Shown here: piece by piece, positions 15,338 to 28,847 of the stretch
Numbering within the stretch: the first letter of the stretch is position 1
How the letters are laid out: each line of letters starts with the position of its first letter
Assembly: GCF_013344475.1 (NCBI RefSeq)
Contig: NZ_JABUOU010000011.1
Span: 62,001 to 126,000 of the forward strand
Length of the DNA: 64,000 bases
Source: Martelella limonii
GTDB taxonomy: Bacteria; Pseudomonadota; Alphaproteobacteria; Rhizobiales; Rhizobiaceae
Direction of reading: 5' to 3'
Notes under the pieces: model-generated
What the model was told of the DNA's origin: nothing
Databases searched by the model: none
What the model saw: only the letters and a program-made list of their open reading frames with translations
Made by a program: the position numbers and the translations under genes

Positions 15338-15793
15338 TCAGACCTTTGAGGGATCGCGCACCGGAACCTGGGCGAGCACGGTATAGGTCATCACCACGTC
15401 GTCATCCTGATTGAACATCGTGACACGGGTGCGGATGCGGCCGAATTCCGGGCGTTTTTCATGGCGGCTGGTCTCGATCACCTCGCGCGTCGTGGTCATC
15501 CGGTCACCGGGCCTGCCCGGCAGGCGCCAGCGCAGCTCTTCGAGGCCGAGCCCCACCATCGGCGTATCGCCGAAGCTTCCGGAGGTGACGAACATCCGCA
15601 TGGAAAGCGAGGCCAGTTGCCAACCGCTGGCAATCAGCGAACCGAAGCGGCCGTTTGCGGCGGCTTCGGGGTCGGTATGCATCGGCTGCGGATCATATTC
15701 GCTGGCAAAGCGAATGATATCGGCCTCGGTCAGGGTGACAGGTTCGCTGGTCCAGGTTTCGCCGACCTCGATATCTTCAAAATAGCGCTGCAT
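15338..15793 (-). CDS. MaoC-like (R)-specific enoyl-CoA hydratase
   Basis: Hot-dog-fold hydratase of 151 residues, expected to add water to an enoyl-CoA. The hydratase-2 motif is visible: RFASEYDPQPMHTDPEAA followed by FGSLIASGWQ, containing the catalytic Asp and His. It converges with coaA with only 10 bases between them, and is the last gene of the minus-strand arm of the aromatic-CoA locus, 94 bases after the MarR gene. This context suggests hydration of an unsaturated CoA intermediate after ring reduction or opening; that role is inferred. Confidence 0.8.
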   Translation of the reverse strand: MQRYFEDIEVGETWTSEPVTLTEADIIRFASEYDPQPMHTDPEAAANGRFGSLIASGWQLASLSMRMFVTSGSFGDTPMVGLGLEELRWRLPGRPGDRMTTTREVIETSRHEKRPEFGRIRTRVTMFNQDDDVVMTYTVLAQVPVRDPSKV

Positions 15794-15887
15794 GGTCCTC
15801 TCCCGCTGACAATGTGCTTGCTTCCGGCCTCTTCCAAACCGCGCGCAACACCCGCAGCGGCATATACGCCTATCCGGACAGCGTGCC

Positions 15888-16349
15888 TTACAAATGCGGC
15901 TTGTGGCGGATATCCATCATGATCGAAATCGCCCGGGCAATGTCCGGCTCGCCGATCTCTTCAAAAATCTCGTCGATCCAGCCGCGATGGACGGCGGTTG
16001 CCTCATCCATCAGCGCCTTGCCCTTGGGGGTGATGCGCACCAGAAAGGCGCGGCGATCGGTTTCCTGGTTTTCCCGCTCGACCAGGCCCTCCGACACCAG
16101 TTTCTCGATGACGCCGGTGACATTGCCGTTCGACACCACAAGCTGCTTGGAAAGCTCGCTCATACGCATGCCCTCGGGCGCAGCGTGCAGCGCGGCCATC
16201 ACGTCGAAGCGCGGCAGCGTCATCGCGTATTTCTCGCGCAGCCTTTCGCGCAGATTGCCCTCGACATGGCGCACCGCCTTCAGCATCTGCAGCCAGAGGC
16301 GGACGCGCTGGGTGGCAAGGGCCGGATCTTTGATGTCACGAACGGTCAT
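15888..16349 (-). CDS. MarR-family transcriptional regulator of the aromatic-CoA locus
   Basis: Dimeric winged-helix regulator of 153 residues. The DNA-binding core is MSELSKQLVVSNGNVTGVIE followed by the wing QETDRRAFLVRITPKG. The N-terminus is followed by a helix (LQMLKAVRHVEGNLRERLR) typical of ligand-responsive MarR proteins; several relatives sense aryl-CoA thioesters. It lies within the minus-strand catabolic operon, 70 bases after the RidA-family gene. An 8-bp inverted repeat directly upstream of the ATG suggests autoregulation. A TTG 15 codons upstream is a possible alternative start. Confidence 0.88.
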   Translation of the reverse strand: MTVRDIKDPALATQRVRLWLQMLKAVRHVEGNLRERLREKYAMTLPRFDVMAALHAAPEGMRMSELSKQLVVSNGNVTGVIEKLVSEGLVERENQETDRRAFLVRITPKGKALMDEATAVHRGWIDEIFEEIGEPDIARAISIMMDIRHKPHL

Positions 16350-16375
16350 GGCGGATACTTTCTGTTTTATCCGCC
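16350..16375. promoter_or_regulatory. inverted repeat abutting the MarR start, probable autoregulatory site
   Basis: GGCGGATA (16350-16357) and TATCCGCC (16368-16375) are exact reverse complements separated by 10 bases. The left arm touches the start codon on the minus strand. It could be an operator or, in mRNA, a hairpin next to the start codon. Confidence 0.45.
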
Positions 16376-26427: not shown

Positions 26428-27419
26428 CCCGCGAAATCATCATCAATCTCGTCATCTTCCTCGCGCTCATCGCCTTTGCGATCGGCGCGCATCTGATGGG
26501 CAACGGCTTTGCCGTGACGCTCGCCACCAAGGCGGCGATCTTCGCGCTCGCCGGCGTCGGCCTCAACCTCGCACTCGGCTATGGCGGGCTGGTCTCGCTC
26601 GGCCATGCGGCCTTCTTCGGCGTCGGCGGCTATGTGACCGGCATTCTGGCAAGCCATGCGATGTCCGGCGAACCGGTGTTCACCCTCCCCTTCACGCTGG
26701 CCGGCAGCAATGACATGCTCGGCATCTGGCCGATGGCGATGGTGGCAGGCGGCATCCTGGCGCTCGCGATCGGCCTTCTGTCACTCAGGACCACCGGCGT
26801 CTACTTCATCATGGTGACGCTCGCCTTTGCGCAGATGGTGTTCTATTTCGCGATCAGCTGGCCGCGCTATGGCGGCGAGGACGGGTTGAGCTTTTATGTC
26901 CGCAACAATTTCCCGGGCATGAACACCTTCGATCCGATCCAGTATTTTGCCATATGCGCTGCGCTGCTGGCGATCGCGCTGGTCTTCACCGCCGTTGTCA
27001 CCCAGTCGCGCTACGGCCTTGCGCTGCAGGCGGCGCGCCAGAACCGGCAGCGCAGCATGGCCGTCGGCATCCGGCCCTATGGCGTGCTGCTGGTCGCCTT
27101 CGTGCTGTCCGGCATGATCGTGGCGCTCGCGGGCTCGCTCTATGCCGATCTCAACCGCTTCGTAAGCCCGGCCATGCTGTCGTGGCACATGTCTGGCGAG
27201 ATCATGGTGTTTGTCATCCTCGGCGGCGTCGGCAGGCTTTGCGGACCGGTCGCGGGCGCTGCCATCTACATCCTGCTCGAACACCTGCTCGGCGGCATCA
27301 GCGAATACTGGCAGGCGCTGCTCGGCATCCTGCTGCTGGTGATCGTGATCTATTCGCCGGGCGGCCTGATCGGGCTCGTCACCGGGCGTCTTTTCCAGGG
27401 GAGAGCGCGCGATGCATGA
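26424..27419 (+). CDS. LIV-type ABC transporter permease (LivM-like)
   Basis: Second inner-membrane permease, 331 residues and about nine helices. The motif LNLALGYGGLVSLGHAAFFG is the LivM hallmark, followed later by RLCGPVAGAAIYILLE. It overlaps both neighbours (4 bases upstream, 8 bases downstream), so the importer proteins are made in a coupled series. Confidence 0.92.
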   Translation: MTREIIINLVIFLALIAFAIGAHLMGNGFAVTLATKAAIFALAGVGLNLALGYGGLVSLGHAAFFGVGGYVTGILASHAMSGEPVFTLPFTLAGSNDMLGIWPMAMVAGGILALAIGLLSLRTTGVYFIMVTLAFAQMVFYFAISWPRYGGEDGLSFYVRNNFPGMNTFDPIQYFAICAALLAIALVFTAVVTQSRYGLALQAARQNRQRSMAVGIRPYGVLLVAFVLSGMIVALAGSLYADLNRFVSPAMLSWHMSGEIMVFVILGGVGRLCGPVAGAAIYILLEHLLGGISEYWQALLGILLLVIVIYSPGGLIGLVTGRLFQGRARDA

Positions 27420-28161
27420 TCCGGTCCTTTCAATCACCGATCTGCGCAAGGCCTATGGCGCGCTGACCGTGACGGATGGCGTCAGCCTGACGCTGCTGCC
27501 GGGCGAGATCCATGCGCTGATCGGGCCGAACGGCGCCGGCAAATCGACGCTGATCAAGCAGATCGTCGGGGAAACCCGCCCCGATCACGGCACGATCCGT
27601 TTCGAGGGCCAGGTGATTGACGATCTCGACGCCGCAGCCCGCGCCCGTCTCGGCCTTGCCCGTTCATTCCAGGTGTCGTCGGTGATCGCCGATTTCACGG
27701 TGTTGCAGAATGTCATGCTTGCTGTGGCGGGAGCATCGGGGCGGACGTTCCGCTTCTTCCTGCCCGCGCTTTCCGATCGCAAGCTCACCGAGCCCGCCAT
27801 GTACCATATCGGCGAGGCGGGGCTTTCAGAACGCTACAATGTCACGGTTTCCTCGCTTTCCCATGGCGAGCGGCGGAAGCTCGAAATCGCGATGGCGCTT
27901 GCCATGCGGCCGAGGGCCTTTCTGCTCGACGAGCCGATGGCCGGCATGGGGCTCGAGGGCGGAAAGCAGCTCACCGCCACCCTTGCCGAACTGAAGCGCG
28001 AGGCGCCGATCCTGCTTGTGGAGCACGACATGGATGCCGTCTTCGCCCTTGCCGACCGCATTTCGGTGCTGGTCTACGGCAAGATCATCGCATCGGGCAG
28101 CGTCGCCGAAATCCGCGCCAATCCGGAAGTGCGCCGTTCCTATCTCGGAGAAGAGGCATGA
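27412..28161 (+). CDS. LIV-type ABC transporter ATPase (LivG-like)
   Basis: Cytoplasmic ATPase of 249 residues. Walker A is GPNGAGKSTL, the signature is LSHGERRKLE, Walker B is AFLLDEPMAGMG and the switch His is in LLVEHDMD. The SHGE signature, rather than SGGE, is usual in LivG proteins. Overlaps the next ATPase gene by four bases. Confidence 0.93.
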   Translation: MHDPVLSITDLRKAYGALTVTDGVSLTLLPGEIHALIGPNGAGKSTLIKQIVGETRPDHGTIRFEGQVIDDLDAAARARLGLARSFQVSSVIADFTVLQNVMLAVAGASGRTFRFFLPALSDRKLTEPAMYHIGEAGLSERYNVTVSSLSHGERRKLEIAMALAMRPRAFLLDEPMAGMGLEGGKQLTATLAELKREAPILLVEHDMDAVFALADRISVLVYGKIIASGSVAEIRANPEVRRSYLGEEA

Positions 28162-28847
28162 CCCGGCTCCTCGAACTCGAAAACGTCACCGCCGCCTATG
28201 GCGCGGTGCGCGCGCTCTTCAACATCTCGCTTGCCATGGACGAGGGCGAGGTGGTGGCGCTGATGGGGCGCAATGGCATGGGCAAGACCACCACGATCCG
28301 CTGCATCAGCCGGCTGCTCCCGCATTCGGGCGGCACGCTTGCCTTTGCCGGGAGGGACGTCAAGGGTTTGACCGCGCCCAAGGTCGCCCGTCTCGGCGTC
28401 GGCCTCGTGCCGGAGGGACGGCGCTGTTTTGCGCCGCTGACAGTTGCCGAAAACCTGGTGGTCGCCGCCCGTCCGGGGCCCTGGGATATCGAGCGCGTCT
28501 CGGCGCTTTTTCCCCGCCTCAAGGAACGCATGCGGCAGACATCGGCGACACTTTCGGGCGGCGAACAGCAGATGCTGGCGATCGGCCGGGCGCTGATGAC
28601 CAATCCGCGCCTTCTGATCCTTGATGAAGCGACCGAGGGCCTGGCGCCGGTGGTGCGCCAGGAGATCTGGGCGGGCGTCAGGGCACTCAAGGCGGAGGGG
28701 CTTTCGATCCTGCTGGTCGACAAGTCGCTGAAGGAAATCGCCTCCGTCGCCGACAAGGCGGTGATCATCGAGCGCGGCGAAACGGTGTGGCAGGGCGGGA
28801 TTGACGGCCTGACGCCGGAGCTGACGGACCAGTATCTCGGCGTCTGA
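28158..28847 (+). CDS. LIV-type ABC transporter ATPase (LivF-like)
   Basis: Second ATPase of the importer, 229 residues. Walker A GRNGMGKTTT, signature LSGGEQQMLAIGRAL and Walker B LLILDEATEGLAP are intact. The switch position reads LLVDKSLKE, with Lys at the place where LivF proteins often have Gln or His. It closes the five-gene importer operon. Confidence 0.92.
   Translation: MTRLLELENVTAAYGAVRALFNISLAMDEGEVVALMGRNGMGKTTTIRCISRLLPHSGGTLAFAGRDVKGLTAPKVARLGVGLVPEGRRCFAPLTVAENLVVAARPGPWDIERVSALFPRLKERMRQTSATLSGGEQQMLAIGRALMTNPRLLILDEATEGLAPVVRQEIWAGVRALKAEGLSILLVDKSLKEIASVADKAVIIERGETVWQGGIDGLTPELTDQYLGV

Follow-up and report, generated by a model that had tools for sequence, protein, structure and literature searches.

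The 64,000-nucleotide stretch of Martelella limonii analysed here (positions 62,001 to 126,000 of contig NZ_JABUOU010000011.1, below called the window) lies at C3:62001-126000 of a 4.54 Mb genome in 40 contigs (genome G000) and carries a divergent locus for the predicted breakdown of an aromatic acid. A MaoC-fold protein, a MarR-type regulator, a Rid-family (RidA-like) protein, a short-chain dehydrogenase/reductase (SDR) and a fusion of a flavin adenine dinucleotide (FAD) monooxygenase with an old yellow enzyme (OYE) domain are encoded on one strand, and two 4HBT thioesterases (TE1 and TE2, in gene order), an AMP-forming ligase, an alpha/beta hydrolase and a LIV-type importer, complete by Pfam with a binding protein, two permeases and two ATPases, on the other (Table 1). 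All genes listed in the first-pass annotation, which was made from the sequence alone, are present, open and in the order given there, and their families were identified with Pfam and NCBIfam. The locus probably encodes an anthraniloyl-CoA route whose lower half is carried out by an unlinked operon on contig C4, encoding a small cupin, an FAH-family protein and a second SDR, under the same predicted operator.

The upper half of the first-pass pathway, in which an imported aromatic acid is converted to its CoA ester for hydroxylation and reduction by a fusion of the anthraniloyl-CoA monooxygenase/reductase type, is supported by the family of the fusion, by the ligase and by comparison with 80 related loci. 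The fusion (FAD_binding_3 at residues 2-327, PF00724 at residues 395-727) scored 1221.4 bits against NF006101, named "bifunctional salicylyl-CoA 5-hydroxylase/oxidoreductase", with a cut-off of 1078 and a match over residues 1-758 that spans both domains. The only PDB chain matching the ligase at E <= 1e-80 is 4wv3, an anthranilate-CoA ligase. The ligase is 52% identical to that of plasmid pAL1 (pARUE113) from Arthrobacter sp. Rue61a, whose anthranilate-CoA ligase activity was assayed according to the available text of PMC3534580, and the two fusions, that of the window and the one adjoining the pAL1 ligase, share 49% identity. Anthranilate is preferred over the salicylyl family name because the nearest assayed neighbours speak for it. 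Among the 80 loci, a tryptophan 2,3-dioxygenase gene occurs in 30, an isatin hydrolase gene in 14 and either one in 41, which also argues for anthranilate since both enzymes feed it, and the Rid protein fits an amino substrate. By this kinship, 2-aminobenzoate (anthranilate) is most likely the substrate and the locus an anthraniloyl-CoA locus.

One scan of bacterial genomes gave at least 583 confirmed relatives of the fusion, the best 80 of which constitute the named loci. Counted at 40-45% identity and 80% coverage, as lower bounds since contig ends cut some loci, these carry genes for a crotonase (ECH) in 75 cases, SDR in 75, an acyl-CoA dehydrogenase (ACAD) in 70, MarR in 69, ligase in 59, a RidA-like protein in 47, thioesterase in 32 and the importer binding protein in 31. 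As the gene set recurs across these loci, it is not a product of chance. The combination of RidA-like protein, thioesterase, SDR, MarR, ligase and importer with the fusion, which the first-pass annotation had not recognized as a described pathway, turned out to be a common arrangement, found for example on plasmid 1 of Paracoccus denitrificans PD1222 and in Comamonas; pAL1 too has RidA-like, thioesterase, ligase and fusion genes together. The whole gene set was consequently rejected as new, being usual in relatives, save for MaoC, of which no homologue at E <= 1e-20 was found in any other fusion locus compared and which stands beside a fusion only in the window. The upper half of the locus is of a known kind and the lower half a variant, the departure, not noticed in the first-pass annotation, being the missing ECH and ACAD and the cupin-FAH-SDR operon on another contig.

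The window locus carries neither an ECH nor an ACAD gene, and no close one was found in the genome, where the best ECH reached 33% identity and the best ACAD 42% over part of the protein; the weak homologues (ECH 24-33%, ACAD 27-42%) include several on contig C37. ECH was detected at 74-84% in the positive controls G386, G387 and G388, whereas the genome with the named fusion closest to that of the window (L044, 83% identity) likewise lacks it, its best ECH being at 36%. The usual beta-oxidation enzymes for the lower half were thus found neither in the locus nor in the genome, although unrelated enzymes could serve.

In total, 111 fusion loci including the window were compared for ECH and cupin (L159, a copy of L044, was dropped): 83 carry ECH and 14 a cupin, with no locus having the two together, and the remaining 14, among them the window, have neither. 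The 14 cupin loci of 111 do not represent a frequency, because they were fetched for holding a cupin. An unselected class sample of 385 genomes, with ECH called at E <= 1e-80, the fusion over its family cut-off and a close cupin at 70% or more, contains the fusion in 65 genomes, ECH in 61, both in 55 and a close cupin in two, each without ECH; G191 has ECH, fusion and a weak 38% cupin. Ten fusion genomes of this sample lack ECH, and the two with the close cupin, the window's own genome and G283, are among them. Of the 397 genomes of an order sample, 16 hold the cupin, ten of them with the fusion. In G283, G436, G643 and G677 cupin and fusion share one stretch and ECH is absent from all four, and in G520, G629, G649 and G694 ECH is present and the cupin lies apart from the fusion; G455, which lacks ECH, was counted on neither side, as its fusion stops 66 bases before the contig end. 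The mutual exclusion of ECH and cupin is valid per locus, not per genome.

The C4 operon (C4:38.2-40.4 kb) consists of adjacent cupin, FAH and second SDR genes whose products are 88%, 78% and 77% identical to the Alloyangia copies, and the same group stands beside the fusion in Alloyangia YSBP01, La 6 and LNNU 3342. In trees, the C4 cupin, FAH and second SDR group with copies from L036, L040 and the genome of L044 (support 99, 97 and 98), and the window fusion is sister to L036, L040, L044, L045, L046 and L123 (support 100), so that the C4 proteins and the fusion have kin in the same Rhodobacterales loci and their trees are congruent. Since L045 and L046 in this clade have ECH, the branches were exchanged even inside it; the fusion tree requires five changes between ECH and cupin branches, at least three by the starred branches. 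Of the 14 cupin loci, 8 hold a TE1 relative at 60-66% identity, against 0 of 83 ECH loci (best similarity there 41%), while the nearest relatives of TE2 (57-62%) are in ECH-type loci, to which the ligase and importer are also nearest. The window locus therefore looks like a mosaic of cupin-type and ECH-type parts.

A shared operator was described by a position weight matrix (PWM) trained on the 200 bp that precede the fusion gene in each of 107 other loci, with the window and L159 left out; it comprises 100 sites, and the motif is palindromic, with consensus TATTTTAAGCTTAAAATA. The palindrome was first noticed in the window (at 20276), and visual inspection had already shown something similar ahead of the C4 cupin when the matrix was constructed. 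Neither window nor C4 sequence went into the PWM, but its four seeds were chosen from other loci for resembling the window palindrome. In 300 kb of the window's genome it found five sites above 20 bits, all at the locus or the C4 cupin, with the next best at 15.0. First-order Markov surrogates reached the C4 score in 1 of 4000 cases for the whole upstream region and in 2 of 4000 for its AT-rich core. All 13 of 13 cupin genes without a fusion in their stretch scored below 0 and so lacked the operator; they include four unlinked cupins of ECH-bearing fusion genomes (L185, L193, L196, L198). The cupin sites of L036 (18.9), L040 (16.3) and L044 (19.1) are weak, scores under about 18 being weak evidence because four more sites on plasmid L040 reach 16-17 bits; in other proteobacterial cupin loci the cupin lies within the fusion operon or operator sites stand elsewhere in the stretch. 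The distribution of sites points to one regulon, formed by the window locus and the C4 operon under a shared predicted operator that is putatively bound by MarR. The C4 operon is likely to belong to the window locus.

Table 1. Genes and operator-like sites of the window locus, with the site at the C4 cupin
Feature	Position	Strand	Basis
MaoC-fold hydratase/dehydratase	15338..15793	-	PF01575, 65 bits; best solved relative 3exz, MaoC-like dehydratase, E 3.7e-23
MarR-type regulator, putative binder of the shared operator	15888..16394	-	PF01047
Rid-family (RidA-like) protein, putative enamine deaminase	16420..16839	-	PF01042, 66.6 bits; Met at Arg105 position
SDR dehydrogenase/reductase	16896..17639	-	PF13561, 3-oxoacyl reductase-like
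Anthraniloyl-CoA monooxygenase/reductase-type fusion (FAD monooxygenase + OYE)	17636..19915	-	NF006101
Operator-like site upstream of fusion	19959..19976		20.9 bits, PWM
Operator-like palindrome upstream of TE1	20276..20293		27.2 bits, PWM
TE1, 4HBT thioesterase of cupin-branch type	20372..20788	+	PF13279 (4HBT_2); probable ATG start at 20372
Predicted anthranilate-CoA ligase (AMP-forming)	20839..22461	+	AMP-binding domain; 4wv3 match
TE2, second 4HBT thioesterase	22473..22880	+	PF13279 (4HBT_2)
Alpha/beta hydrolase (Abhydrolase_3)	22877..23755	+	PF07859
Operator-like site upstream of importer	23770..23787		23.8 bits, PWM
Operator-like site upstream of importer	24126..24143		20.9 bits, PWM
LIV-type substrate-binding protein	24274..25437	+	PF13458, 273.6 bits; 79% to P. 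denitrificans locus protein; probable ATG start at 24274
LivH-type permease	25513..26427	+	PF02653
LivM-type permease	26424..27419	+	PF02653
LivG-type ATPase	27412..28161	+	PF00005, PF12399
LivF-type ATPase	28158..28847	+	PF00005
Operator-like site upstream of C4 cupin	C4		21.6 bits, PWM

Outside the window, a weaker site of 15.0 bits at G000:C3:50616 (L219:8616) precedes a class V aminotransferase-type gene by about 100 bases. A binding protein-like open reading frame (ORF) comes next, and the aminotransferase-type gene perhaps also belongs to the predicted regulon. A different palindrome with perfect arms, CCTCGGG(CTTGA or TCAAG)CCCGAGGAT, has five copies in the window (20088, 20210, 23856, 23967 and 37816), four of which face each other in pairs within the locus's two promoter regions. 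A single further copy was found in 11 more 20-kb stretches and one of 16 kb from the same genome. The PDB relatives of the alpha/beta hydrolase include Lipase 1 (4.3e-29), 2pbl (4.4e-26) and, behind these, the kynurenine formamidase 4e11 (E 1.1e-14), and the enzyme is perhaps a formamidase releasing anthranilate or kynurenine.

Among the nearest known systems, the 2-aminobenzoyl-CoA pathway of Azoarcus evansii (abm clusters) shares with the window a ligase and a two-domain monooxygenase/reductase in a CoA-bound route, but is finished by beta-oxidation enzymes as described in the available text of PMC4539516, whereas the window has no ECH or ACAD in the locus and none close in the genome. Plasmid 1 of P. 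denitrificans PD1222, in the order fusion-SDR-MarR-ECH-ACAD-thioesterase-RidA-ligase-importer-hydrolase, shares fusion-SDR-MarR, thioesterase, RidA-like gene, ligase, five-gene importer and alpha/beta hydrolase with the window; it differs in having ECH and ACAD, and no MaoC, TE1 type or cupin was found in that stretch. pAL1 resembles the window in its RidA-like gene, thioesterase, ligase and fusion and in the lack of ECH and ACAD in the stretch, and shares with the window's genome the FAH and a cupin at 72% identity. In contrast to the window, its regulators are of the PaaX type instead of MarR, no such operator is found, cupin and FAH are in the cluster and the thioesterase is TesB-type. Cupin, FAH, thioesterase, RidA-like protein, ligase and fusion are encoded together on five actinobacterial plasmids (Arthrobacter Rue61a and ERGS1:01, Rhodococcus erythropolis BG43, R. 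qingshengii N9T-4 and Tsukamurella).

The closest fusions (80-83%), together with the TE1 type and a RidA-like gene, are found in Alloyangia pacifica YSBP01, Paracoccaceae La 6 and Rhodobacteraceae LNNU 3342, which share cupin-FAH-SDR and the operator with the window's genome. Different from the window, their cupin operon is adjacent, a YciA-like hotdog gene takes the place of MaoC, and ligase and importer are absent, with isatin hydrolase and 2-oxoacid oxidoreductase genes instead. In L036, L040, L044 and L123 (e.g. L036:19413-26008) the fusion is present and no ligase was found; these loci carry isatin hydrolase together with the two subunits of a 2-oxoacid:ferredoxin oxidoreductase in its stead, although the La 6 stretch has just the alpha subunit; isatinate may be converted directly to anthraniloyl-CoA there. 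Plasmid p3 of Rhizobium leguminosarum GLR17 has the complete set in one stretch, namely ligase, importer, MarR, fusion, SDR, TE1 type, RidA-like gene, cupin, FAH, SDR and alpha/beta hydrolase; these genes are all linked, unlike in the window's genome, and the fusion is just 52% identical.

At the position that we take to correspond to Arg105 of the E. coli RidA reference, Met is found in 68 of 68 Rid rows from fusion loci (those of L044 and L159 are maybe one gene) and also in the five actinobacterial Rid proteins. In archetypal RidA, Arg105 binds the substrate carboxylate and its loss abolished activity, as the available text of PMC4433059 reports. The Rid protein of the window was therefore rejected as an archetypal RidA. 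The loss of Arg105 may suit a substrate with its carboxylate masked as a thioester, or mean another function, and the Rid proteins of this pathway may form a subfamily for CoA-bound enamines. A C7H8O4 acid bound to CoA, perhaps cyclohexanedione-carboxyl-CoA, was seen in anthranilate-grown Rue61a only, according to the part available of PMC3534580. The Rid protein would give rise to this compound by deaminating the enamine expected from the fusion, whose reaction is known for the Azoarcus enzyme, to 2,5-dioxocyclohexanecarboxyl-CoA, from which TE1 would free 2,5-dioxocyclohexanecarboxylate, a dihydro form of gentisate whose enol would offer the chelating group of gentisate. The cupin with O2 would then cleave the C1-C2 bond, as in gentisate cleavage, to 2,4-dioxoheptanedioate (succinylpyruvate), and the FAH-family protein, close to a 2,4-diketo-acid hydrolase (best PDB match 8gsr, L-2,4-diketo-3-deoxyrhamnonate hydrolase, E 1e-101), would split this to succinate and pyruvate, so that ECH and ACAD would not be needed. 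This exact sequence of deamination, CoA release, cupin cleavage and FAH hydrolysis is put forward tentatively, as one possibility that is more doubtful than the route as a whole. In the literature searched, which mostly excluded subscription journals and preprints and came without supplements, neither a cupin/FAH branch nor a demonstration of any step from Rid onward was found.

Several observations weigh against assigning the lower half to the C4 operon. The operon is unlinked to the locus, and 6 of the 16 cupin genomes of the order sample hold the cupin-FAH-SDR module without a fusion, which indicates that the module also serves another use. Cupin genes without a fusion occur at L185-L198, L201 and L202, often with FAH and SDR; L187 and L193 lie near apparently sugar-type ATP-binding cassette (ABC) ATPase genes, and the cupins of L195-L198, at about 58-63% identity, form a divergent subfamily. 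ECH and cupin coexist in 4 of the 10 cupin genomes with a fusion, and 8 of the 65 class-sample fusion genomes have neither (G025, G082, G157, G197, G231, G281, G313 and G366). In six of these eight the fusion is at 49-54% identity and no other locus gene is well matched; MarR, SDR and the RidA-like gene are still present in G313 (fusion 48%) and G366 (67%). The five actinobacterial loci are without an operator of this type, and the Rid protein has Met at a residue essential in archetypal RidA. FAH falls below the rhamnonate-hydrolase cut-off (436 of 500 bits), and two FAH paralogues of 63% are encoded in the window's genome. The dioxygenase function of the cupin is putative, as the protein matches no NCBIfam family, its PDB matches are weak and to oxalate decarboxylase, and its single-sequence structure model reached a predicted local distance difference test (pLDDT) score of 39. 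The predicted metal-binding motif 1, which we take to be G(X)5HXH(X)3,4E(X)6G, and the His of motif 2 are kept in 29 of 29 aligned rows.

One alternative is ordinary beta-oxidation, in which the lower half would fall to unrelated ECH and ACAD homologues encoded away from the locus and the C4 operon would serve sugar-acid catabolism. The weak homologues, several of them on C37, the modules in fusion-free genomes, some near the apparently sugar-type ABC ATPase genes of L187 and L193 (by ORF reading), and the nearness of FAH to a rhamnonate-pathway hydrolase are in its favour, but an operator of at least 20 bits stands at the C4 cupin and at none of ten other 20-kb stretches, among them those with C37, FAH paralogues and further homologues. 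The tie of the TE1 type to cupin loci, the congruent kinship of C4 proteins and fusion, and the four unlinked cupins without an operator in ECH-bearing fusion genomes also speak against it, and it is considered unlikely. The same genes could instead cleave an aromatic ring, with the cupin acting on gentisate (after SDR re-oxidation) or on 5-hydroxyanthranilate freed by TE1 to yield maleylpyruvate-type products for FAH. A thioesterase with cupin and FAH indeed resembles gentisate catabolism; an indole-anthranilate-gentisate route is described in Alcaligenes In3, its enzyme not identified there in the available text (PMC6221969), and 5-hydroxyanthraniloyl-CoA is reported to arise under limiting NADH (available part of PMC3534580). 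However, the fusion retains the OYE half, which removes aromaticity, the five actinobacterial modules have no SDR in their annotation next to the fusion, ligase and cupin genes, and Rue61a, with its cupin branch on pAL1, did not grow on gentisate or 5-hydroxyanthranilate, which uptake could explain (same part of PMC3534580). Aromatic cleavage is likewise improbable.

A salicylate pathway, from salicylyl-CoA to gentisyl-CoA and by a thioesterase to gentisate, takes its appeal from the NF006101 family name and the thioesterases present; the ligase, however, is closest to anthranilate-CoA ligases, tryptophan/indole genes stand beside 41 of 80 relatives and a Rid deaminase would have no task on salicylate, on which grounds salicylate was rejected as the likely substrate. 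The assayed relative also comes from anthranilate breakdown, and Rue61a did not grow on salicylate as far as the available text of PMC3534580 states, so that this pathway is very improbable.

The anthraniloyl-CoA route with its lower half on C4 bears on the whole family, which would split into two exchangeable lower branches, the second comprising the TE1-type thioesterase, cupin, FAH and SDR. That this second branch works by the chemistry set out above, spans Proteobacteria and Actinobacteria, was swapped with ECH/ACAD several times and is held in the window's genome as a separate operon tied by the operator is a provisional proposal, with the odds somewhat against it in full. Tryptophan degradation via the anthraniloyl-CoA route was omitted from GapMind for lack of knowledge, according to the available text of PMC9007349. 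The steps after the anthraniloyl-CoA monooxygenase/reductase, a stated gap, are now testable, and genes of the second branch can lie apart from the fusion locus. Since cupin genes adjoin kynureninase, tryptophan 2,3-dioxygenase, isatin hydrolase and aqdC1, the annotation of tryptophan, indole and quinolone breakdown would be helped as well.

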